In this document: piece by piece, positions 27,609-64,000 of the stretch
Position numbering within the stretch: position 1 is the stretch's first letter
Layout: every line of letters begins with the position of its first letter
Source of the DNA: a marine gamma proteobacterium HTCC2080
GTDB lineage: Bacteria > Pseudomonadota > Gammaproteobacteria > Pseudomonadales > Halieaceae
Direction of reading: 5' to 3'
Assembly: GCA_000169115.1 (NCBI GenBank)
Contig: AAVV01000003.1
Span: 62,001-126,000, forward strand
DNA: 64,000 bases
The notes under the pieces: generated by a model
Seen by the model: only the letters and a program-made list of their open reading frames with translations
Database searches by the model: none
Told to the model about the DNA's origin: nothing
Made by a program: the position numbers and the translations under genes

Positions 27609-27614
27609 AGCAGC

Positions 27615-27793
27615 GCAGCCTGGCGTATTAGCCAGACAGTCAGTCCTCGAGCCGATAATGCTACACCCGGGGACCACCGTACGCTGTTGTTGCGCAAATC
27701 CGGCACGACCGGAGAGCCTGATGCAGCACGGCGGTCACCACCTTGAGCCTCAGGGTTCAAGGGCGACACCGTCAGCGGTACGCTGGGTTGCCT
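27615..27793 (+). ncRNA. ssrS: 6S RNA
   Basis: About 180-base RNA that binds sigma-70 RNA polymerase and mimics an open promoter. The conserved 5' block GTCAGTCCTCGAGCCGATA and the 3' block CACCTTGAG...GGGTTCAAGGG match E. coli 6S RNA (CAGTCCCCTGAGCCGATA; CACCTTGAACCAAGGGTTCAAGG). The ends pair as a closing stem: 27615-27627 with 27779-27791 through G-C, A-U and G-U pairs. It lies between zapA and the 5-formyltetrahydrofolate cycloligase gene, its standard place. The 3' end is estimated to within a few bases. Confidence 0.93.
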
Positions 27794-62570: not shown

Positions 62571-63446
62571 TTAGATGACGAGGGTATTTTTAAGCTTCTT
62601 CATCGCATTAACTTCCAGCTGACGAATCCGCTCAGCCGACACACCGTATTCAGCGGCCAGCTCATGCAATGTAGCTTTTTGTTCAGCCAGCCAACGTTGC
62701 GTCACAATATTGCGACTACGCTCATCTAAATCGCTGAGCGCAGCGCGCAAGCGATTTTCACCGTCCCGAGCTGAGTCTTCTGCCTCAATGCACCGCGCTG
62801 GGTCAGTCGATATATCGTCTAAGTAAGCCTGCGGTGACTGCCATGCGTCTTCGTCATCGGCGTCGGTGGGGAGATCAAAAGCGATGTCGCGGCTTGATAG
62901 ACGCCCTTCCATGCGCTGCACTTCAGCTTCGTCGACACCCAAGTCTGCAGCGATCGCCTGAGTCTCTTCCGCGTTCAGCCAACCCAATGATTTTTTTGCA
63001 CTGCGCAAGTTAAAGAACAATTTACGCTGCGCCTTGGTCGTTGCCACTTTAACGATGCGCCAGTTACGCAAAATAAATTCGTGCATTTCCGCTTTAATCC
63101 AATGCACAGCAAAGGAGACTAGGCGCACGCCTTTATTGGGATCAAAGCGTTTTACCGCTTTCATAAGGCCCACGTTACCCTCTTGAATGAGGTCTCCCTC
63201 GGCAAGGCCATAGCCCGAGTAACTTCGTGCAATGTGAACCACAAAACGCAAGTGAGCAAGCACTAACTCTCGCGCAGAGTCAACGCAGCCCTCATAATAT
63301 AGCTTTTCAGCTAGTGCTTGTTCACGGTCAACCGACAAAATCGGTATTCCGCTCACAGCCTGAACATAGGCGGGCAAATTGGCCCCAGGGGTCATAGACA
63401 TAACCGCCCCGTGACCCATTGCTACTGTCTTTCCTGATTCGGACAT
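62571..63446 (-). CDS. rpoH: RNA polymerase sigma-32 (heat shock)
   Basis: Alternative sigma factor of 291 residues directing heat-shock genes. Region 2 carries LRFVVHIARSYSGYGLAEGD and RFDPNKGVRLVSFAVHWIKA; the RpoH-specific box in the region 2/3 linker is seen as TKAQRKLFFNLRSAKK; region 4.2 is EYGVSAERIRQLEVNAMKKL. It starts at ATG 63444-63446 behind a strong AGGAGG. The ftsX-rpoH order is conserved. Unusually, a perfect CIRCE repeat lies 32-58 bases upstream of the start codon, implying repression by HrcA in addition to the usual translational and proteolytic control. Confidence 0.96.
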   Translation of the reverse strand: MSESGKTVAMGHGAVMSMTPGANLPAYVQAVSGIPILSVDREQALAEKLYYEGCVDSARELVLAHLRFVVHIARSYSGYGLAEGDLIQEGNVGLMKAVKRFDPNKGVRLVSFAVHWIKAEMHEFILRNWRIVKVATTKAQRKLFFNLRSAKKSLGWLNAEETQAIAADLGVDEAEVQRMEGRLSSRDIAFDLPTDADDEDAWQSPQAYLDDISTDPARCIEAEDSARDGENRLRAALSDLDERSRNIVTQRWLAEQKATLHELAAEYGVSAERIRQLEVNAMKKLKNTLVI

Positions 63447-63477
63447 ATTGTTATCCTCCTCCCTTCGATAACTTATT

Positions 63478-63504
63478 TTAGCACTCTACATTAGAGAGTG
63501 CTAA
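63478..63504. promoter_or_regulatory. CIRCE element (HrcA operator) upstream of rpoH
   Basis: TTAGCACTC, nine bases (TACATTAGA), then GAGTGCTAA: an exact match to the CIRCE consensus. It lies between ftsX and rpoH, 32-58 bases before the rpoH ATG. The repressor HrcA would bind it; no hrcA gene lies in the window. Confidence 0.93.
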
Positions 63505-63540
63505 TCGGGGAAAAGTTCAGTCGTTGCACAAAATCGAAGA

Positions 63541-64000
63541 CTATCTGGGCTCTAGCTCTCTGAGCTGTGTCGTTGCTGCGTGCCAGGCACTGAGTAGCCC
63601 TAAGGCACCGCCGAGAAACATCATGTTCAAAACACCCATGATCCCAAGGCCCGTGAAACGCCGATCACTGTCATACAGCTGCAGCAGCTGGTTAACCGGC
63701 TCAGATAGATAGATGAAAAAAACCCCCACCATTATGGCGCCGAGTAGCCCGCCGCCAAAACCTGACCACAATCCAGTGTATAAAAATGGACGACGCGCAT
63801 ACGCATCATTCGCCCCAATCAATTTAATCACCACAATTTCATCCCGGCGGGCCTCAATTGCGAGGCGGATAGTGTTGGCCAAAATAAGAACCGCACCCAC
63901 CATCATAAGCAGACCGATACCCATCACAAGCCTTCTGCCTGCCTGCAATACCCCAGCTAACCGGGCCTGCCAAAGGGTATCAAAAACCACTTGATCAACA
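63541..64000 (-). CDS. ftsX: Cell-division protein FtsX (C-terminal part, cut by window edge)
   Basis: The C-terminal 153 codons of the permease-like partner of FtsE, which controls cell-wall hydrolases at the septum. Three helices follow a segment VVFDTLWQARL; the conserved ANTIRLAIEARRDEIVVIKL and GANDAYARRPFLYTG precede two more helices. The reading frame is open to the window edge, so the N-terminus is missing here. The ftsX-rpoH linkage is standard. Confidence 0.92.
   Translation of the reverse strand, partial: VDQVVFDTLWQARLAGVLQAGRRLVMGIGLLMMVGAVLILANTIRLAIEARRDEIVVIKLIGANDAYARRPFLYTGLWSGFGGGLLGAIMVGVFFIYLSEPVNQLLQLYDSDRRFTGLGIMGVLNMMFLGGALGLLSAWHAATTQLRELEPR

Follow-up and report, generated by a model that had tools for sequence, protein, structure and literature searches.

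A CIRCE element upstream of rpoH and its predicted fusion with the promoters of the gene in a marine gammaproteobacterium and its relatives

The rpoH locus and its CIRCE element

The window, that is, the whole stretch of 64,000 nucleotides that was analysed, carries rpoH downstream of ftsX on the minus strand, and the gap of 94 bases between the two genes contains an inverted repeat of the CIRCE type (Table 1), which reads TTAGCACTCTCTAATGTAGAGTGCTAA on that strand. Positions in and around the element are numbered along the minus strand from position 0 (63504), the first T of TTAGCACTC. A perfect CIRCE at 32-58 bases before the ATG of rpoH (at 63446, minus strand) had been claimed in the original prediction, and both the exact match to the consensus and the distance were confirmed. 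When the window was scanned for CIRCE with up to three mismatches, this site was the sole match (mean for shuffled sequences, 0.03). The gene order in L007 is an ftsY-like ORF followed by ftsE-ftsX-rpoH. The window's sole Rfam match at the gathering score was a 6S RNA (RF00013, 81.2 bits) at 27614-27793 on the plus strand.

Table 1. Features of the rpoH upstream region, with positions as numbered in the window
Feature	Position	Strand	Remarks
ftsX, 3' part	63541..64000	-	Above the FtsX cut-off; rest of the gene beyond the window
GAACTT, -35 of predicted sigma-E-type promoter	63513..63518	-	Conserved GGAACTT block at a fixed distance from CIRCE
CIRCE operator, TTAGCACTC-N9-GAGTGCTAA	63478..63504	-	0 mismatches; kept at rpoH in relatives
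TCTAA, candidate sigma-E-type -10	63491..63495	-	Within the CIRCE loop; spacer of 17 in the window
Extended -10, TGC-TAAAAT (TGCTAAAAT)	63475..63483	-	Right CIRCE arm plus three bases beyond it; putative sigma-70 promoter
Ribosome-binding site, GGAGGAGG	63455..63462	-	Read from the sequence
rpoH (sigma-32), 291 aa	62571..63446	-	TIGR02392 equivalog, 388.7 bits (cut-off, 323.1)

In the whole genome (3.58 Mb, 25 contigs), two perfect CIRCEs were found, at rpoH and before groES; the latter occupies C25:463954-463980, and the ATG of groES starts 98 bases past its last base. No CIRCE was found before hrcA, grpE or dnaK, either in the genome at up to three mismatches or near the starts of these genes at up to six, and the further copies that the original prediction had proposed to look for were thus present at groESL and missing at grpE and dnaK. 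A match with three mismatches at C16:103717, within the 5' end of an ORF that resembles secA by eye, was judged to be chance-like.

Distribution of the site and of hrcA

An unbroken frame of 350 amino acids in the same genome was identified as hrcA by TIGR00331 (316 bits; cut-off, 197.2) and PF01628 (E-value, 1.5e-61), and the N-terminal DNA-binding (HTH) domain of the product scored 19.5, just below the Pfam cut-off of 21. The gene lies in the order recN-hrcA-grpE-dnaK-dnaJ, in which hrcA and grpE were assigned by NCBIfam and the other genes were named by eye from their translations.

Eighty rpoH loci were fetched from named genomes through the RpoH protein, the closest being that of a Luminiphilus MAG (97% protein identity), which places the organism among the Halieaceae as a relative of Luminiphilus, and CIRCE was present shortly upstream of rpoH in 71 of them, perfect in 63 and with one mismatch in 8; the arms were kept among these relatives while the flanks had drifted. 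The nine loci without CIRCE were L080, whose contig has only 22 bases upstream of the match, and eight from outside the Halieaceae, namely Marinobacterium (three loci), Oceanobacter, Bacterioplanes, Oceanospirillaceae, Pseudoteredinibacter and Neptunomonas. The 71 loci and the window (n = 72; L080 and the eight CIRCE-less loci left out) are referred to below as the Halieaceae set, in which many sequences are labelled Halieaceae and some only Gammaproteobacteria, Proteobacteria or Alteromonadaceae. Both findings on which the original prediction was staked, an hrcA gene in the genome and an element kept in sister genomes, were thus obtained. Within the window's own family, CIRCE at up to two mismatches was detected in 136 of 140 genomes, with two copies in most.

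Wider samples were searched with a rigid pattern consisting of the exact CIRCE cores, 270-300 bases and then the RpoH codons for QEGN[VI]GLM. By this pattern, CIRCE preceded rpoH in at least 62 of the 341 order genomes, spread over 14 of 47 families. In the class, of which 274 genomes had been drawn evenly, at least 93 genomes from 75 of 222 genera had this arrangement; we take the class to be Gammaproteobacteria, which in GTDB usage include the former Betaproteobacteria. The phylum sample gave 8 matches in 249 genomes, all within its 67 class members and none in the 182 others, in which sites may be hidden by differences in codons or spacing. The reversed pattern, used as a control, gave zero matches in the order, class and phylum samples. 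The counts are lower bounds: among the 15 own-family genomes of the order sample, the pattern missed G012, G013 and G124, all of which carry CIRCEs, that of G012 at rpoH (L020). Because the order and class sets were found by the exact cores GCACTC and GAGTGC, core conservation is given in them by construction and is testable only in the Halieaceae set. Upstream sequences were used from 47 of the 62 order genomes (the window being counted with the class set and 14 others left out) and from all 93 class genomes.

The presence of the site followed that of hrcA. In the order (341 genomes), CIRCE-rpoH and hrcA occurred together in 57 genomes, the site only in 5, hrcA only in 30 and neither in 249, so that hrcA was present in 57/62 genomes with the site and in 30/279 others. 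The corresponding numbers for the class (274 genomes) were 85, 8, 114 and 67, that is, hrcA in 85/93 genomes with the site against 114/181 others. The genomes with hrcA and no match (30 in the order and 114 in the class) were judged by the rigid pattern, and their absences are not proven but may be real. Of the 80 named genomes, 17 were checked for hrcA, which was present in 9/9 with CIRCE at rpoH and in 0/8 without it. The site is conserved in relatives and absent where hrcA is absent, with exceptions of 5/62 in the order and 8/93 in the class. Eleven of these 13 genomes were 62-92% complete, and the other two, G347 and G558, were 96% and 99% complete, respectively; for this near-complete pair, assembly gaps or a different repressor on the site come into question. 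Among 14 control genomes, HrcA was found in 7, and E. coli was not among the 7. Given that hrcA was detected in 199 and the rpoH CIRCE in at least 93 of the 274 class genomes, the remark accompanying the original prediction, that such control is less usual in Gammaproteobacteria, did not hold.

Promoter signatures overlapping the operator

A promoter scan of the window returned TTAGCA-18-TAAAAT with TG before the -10 (9/12 matches), in which TTAGCA, a possible weak -35, lies in the left arm of CIRCE and the spacer is 18. The extended -10 motif TGnTAnnnT was present in 72/72 sequences of the Halieaceae set, 47/47 of the order set and 88/93 of the class set; in the order and class sets, the search pattern itself demands TG but leaves TAnnnT free. 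The T at +29, outside CIRCE, was found in 72/72 sequences of the Halieaceae set and 90/93 of the class, as compared with 1/30 groESL CIRCEs; this control consisted of 30 copies from 30 own-family genomes, among the matches listed, and was not a random draw. T24, the first T of the -10 hexamer, was lost in 2/93 class sequences at rpoH and in 8/30 listed groESL copies (Fisher p = 2e-4, with related genomes counted as independent). When left-arm position 2 was G, the partner T of the right arm was kept in 27/28 class sequences at rpoH, and in listed groESL copies it was kept in 4/10 and replaced by C in 6/10. As judged from this retention of T24 and of the arm partner relative to groESL, a second constraint besides HrcA seems to act on the right arm at rpoH.

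In most class sequences, a second predicted promoter passes through the left arm. GAAC started at -16, -15 or -14 in 65/93 class and 44/47 order sequences and in 0/30 listed groESL controls, and an A in the loop at +11, which gives TCnnA from CIRCE's own TC, was present in 66/93 class sequences and in 1/30 listed groESL copies. In most class sequences the sigma-E-type -10 begins at this TC of the left arm, and the spacer between GAACTT and TC was 16 in 56/66 occurrences; the window reads GAACTT-N17-TCTAA, whereas the class mode is N16. When positions -70 to +11 were searched for GAAC[TCA] followed by 15-17 bases and TCnnA, 58/93 class sequences matched (shuffled mean, 1.2; maximum, 5). A complete sigma-E-type match wholly upstream of CIRCE was carried by 12 class sequences. 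Among the CIRCE-less relatives, a sigma-E-type site was found in 6/8 (shuffled mean, 0.14). RpoE is encoded in the own genome (TIGR02939, 289 bits; cut-off, 236.15).

It is rather unlikely that CIRCE serves as an HrcA operator for a housekeeping promoter alone and that the GGAACTT block belongs to a different ECF sigma factor or to some unrelated regulator. The near universality of the extended -10 in the class agrees with such a reading, as do the lack of any sigma-E-type signature in 16/93 class and 14/72 Halieaceae-set sequences and the three more RpoE-model matches that lie below the cut-off in the genome; exact sigma-E scans of the own genome also revealed no regulon (one scan gave 1 hit and its control 1, the other 3 hits and its control 2; spacers of 14-16, which exclude the window's N17). 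On the other hand, GAAC and TCnnA come and go together: in the Halieaceae set, where the association is inflated by shared descent, both were present in 55 sequences, neither in 14 and one only in 3, and in the class A stood at +11 in 54/65 sequences with GAAC and in 12/28 without it. In addition, the spacer of 16 is the same as in the rpoH site of E. coli (NC_000913), GAACTT-N16-TCTGA at -120 from rpoH, the sigma-E promoter P3, and the upstream region of rpoE itself, read by eye as GGGAACTC-N16-TCTCA, shows the same layout.

Most of the sequences with neither GAAC nor TCnnA came from similar-looking MAGs labelled Luminiphilus or Halieaceae (L044-L054, L073 and L083), and several of these carry instead, just upstream of CIRCE, an inverted repeat such as TGAAAAACGGTATTTTTCA, perhaps the site of another regulator or an ftsX terminator. 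In L230 (G474:C61:202515-202690), an apparent second CIRCE-like repeat, TTTAGCAGTC...GAGTGCTAAAATTTTTAGCACTC, lies directly upstream of the rpoH CIRCE.

That the inverted repeat acts as RNA, forming a hairpin in the 5' leader that sets the stability or translation of rpoH mRNA, is very improbable. E. coli rpoH is under RNA-level temperature control, and a repeat located 32-58 bases before the start codon would be suitably placed; moreover, among 43 departures from the consensus pairs at arm positions 0-2 in the class, 33 still pair as G-U and 2 are compensated, so that the arm changes, most of which leave G-U pairs, are no argument against a hairpin. However, transcripts starting from the extended -10 would contain none of the repeat, and those starting from the sigma-E-type -10 would contain its right arm only; a free RNA hairpin would not lead one to expect either the link to hrcA or the identical perfect sequence at groESL. 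The idea that the rpoH site of this genome is an inert relic, to which the sub-threshold HTH domain of HrcA and the largely post-transcriptional control of sigma-32 in E. coli might point, can hardly be reconciled with arms that are perfect here and in 63/71 relatives and have one mismatch in the other 8 amid drifted flanks, or with an HrcA more than 100 bits above its equivalog cut-off.

Predicted circuit and its ancestry

The genes expected to lie downstream of rpoH in a regulatory sense carry corresponding sites. In the Halieaceae, groESL (L005:3955 onward; L012-L037, L267-L286) is preceded by CIRCE and then by a sigma-32-like promoter (CTTGAAA...CCCCAT), which was matched by pattern in 25/30 listed copies; the own-genome groESL is among the five copies without a pattern match and reads CTTGAAATCCC...CCCCACAT there. 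The sigma-32-like sequence CTTGAAATCGTTGTTAACCATCCCCAT precedes grpE (L006:5638), and a weaker sigma-32-like site precedes dnaK (L006:6324). This anatomy fits an arrangement in which HrcA would act on rpoH and groESL, and sigma-32 would then act on groESL, grpE and dnaK. In some Halieaceae genera, groESL has a TTGACN-N16-TAGAAT-like promoter that ends at CIRCE.

The reading that we consider likely is that an HrcA operator is fused to the core promoters of rpoH, gated by GroE, with sigma-32 driving the chaperones downstream. The right arm would complete the extended -10 TGnTAnnnT recognized by the housekeeping RNA polymerase, and in most class sequences the left arm and loop would carry a TCnnA -10, whose GAACTT -35 starts 14-16 bases upstream. 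Free GroE would keep HrcA active, and the repressor, sitting on CIRCE, would keep polymerase from both rpoH promoters. Titration of GroE by misfolded protein, or direct inactivation of HrcA by heat, would release the repressor and derepress rpoH and groESL together; sigma-32 would then turn on grpE, dnaK and groESL, and the replenished GroE would reactivate HrcA and close the loop. What the sequences show directly is a conserved site that co-occurs with hrcA, promoter signatures specific to rpoH and sigma-32-like promoters at the targets; from these we infer that HrcA binds and represses rpoH and senses GroE, and likewise where transcription starts and which sigma factors are used. In the original prediction, HrcA had been proposed as a master switch above sigma-32 in a two-layer heat-shock circuit. 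The two layers fit the anatomy. With two promoter signatures lying across the operator, which the original prediction did not mention, HrcA is probably a gate on both a sigma-E and a housekeeping input and not a lone master switch.

In B. subtilis, HrcA/CIRCE control of groESL with feedback by GroE is described by a titration model. For Campylobacter jejuni, experiments are reported in which GroE stimulates HrcA binding and heat impairs HrcA directly (from the available part of PMC8533110). The repressor family and the co-target groESL are the same in these systems (B. subtilis and C. jejuni, as far as that part of PMC8533110 extends), whereas the second target here is a sigma factor gene and an operator arm would supply the promoter -10. 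The groE operon of Agrobacterium tumefaciens is under dual control by RpoH and HrcA, according to the portion seen of PMC11764788, and resembles that of the Halieaceae, where sites for both inputs are found in 25/30 listed copies of groESL; the roles of RpoH and HrcA are termed independent in the title of a reference cited there (PMC11764788), whereas here HrcA also appears to control rpoH. In Vibrio alginolyticus, RpoE was located at an rpoH promoter by ChIP (excerpt of PMC4890791).

The closest precedent is Geobacter sulfurreducens, a member of the delta group, for which a consensus CIRCE was predicted before rpoH at -51 and further CIRCEs at groESL and hrcA-grpE-dnaK-dnaJ, in a report that also mentions some gamma-proteobacteria without the HrcA system (PMC545781, available in part). 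The exact consensus site before rpoH and the groESL site are shared with the window's genome, and the CIRCE of the dnaK operon is not; in the available part of that report, the rpoH site is listed for that one genome only, and no overlap with a sigma-E-type promoter or an extended -10 is described for it (PMC545781). No statement on HrcA control of rpoH in Gammaproteobacteria was found in the open-access literature searched. The class-wide extent of the site and the promoter-operator fusion are thus apparently new, CIRCE before rpoH itself having already been predicted in G. sulfurreducens.

The rpoH promoter of E. coli has the same -35/-10 layout as the sigma-E-type site described here, and no CIRCE was found within 245 bases upstream of the E. 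coli gene, where the best match had 8 mismatches. In Pseudoteredinibacter isoporae (L116), in which no hrcA was detected, a CIRCE with 5 mismatches remains about 86 bases before the rpoH match, GAAC stands exactly at -15 and TGCTAGTAT is kept; this single case looks like a ghost operator. On balance we lean towards the view that the fusion of an HrcA operator with the rpoH promoter is ancestral in Gammaproteobacteria, that the bare sigma-E promoter of E. coli is a remnant left after the loss of hrcA, and that ghost operators record this loss.

The control of sigma-32 is taught from E. coli, where HrcA was not found. Should HrcA prove to gate rpoH in much of the class, the circuit known from textbooks would be the derived case, and the common plan would put a GroE-sensing repressor above sigma-32 and over its sigma-E input, tying the folding state of the cytoplasm to envelope stress within about 45 bases. 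The rpoH operator would also be a clean case of an operator arm doubling as a promoter element, and this dual role would account for the more unequal drift of the arms at rpoH than at groESL.
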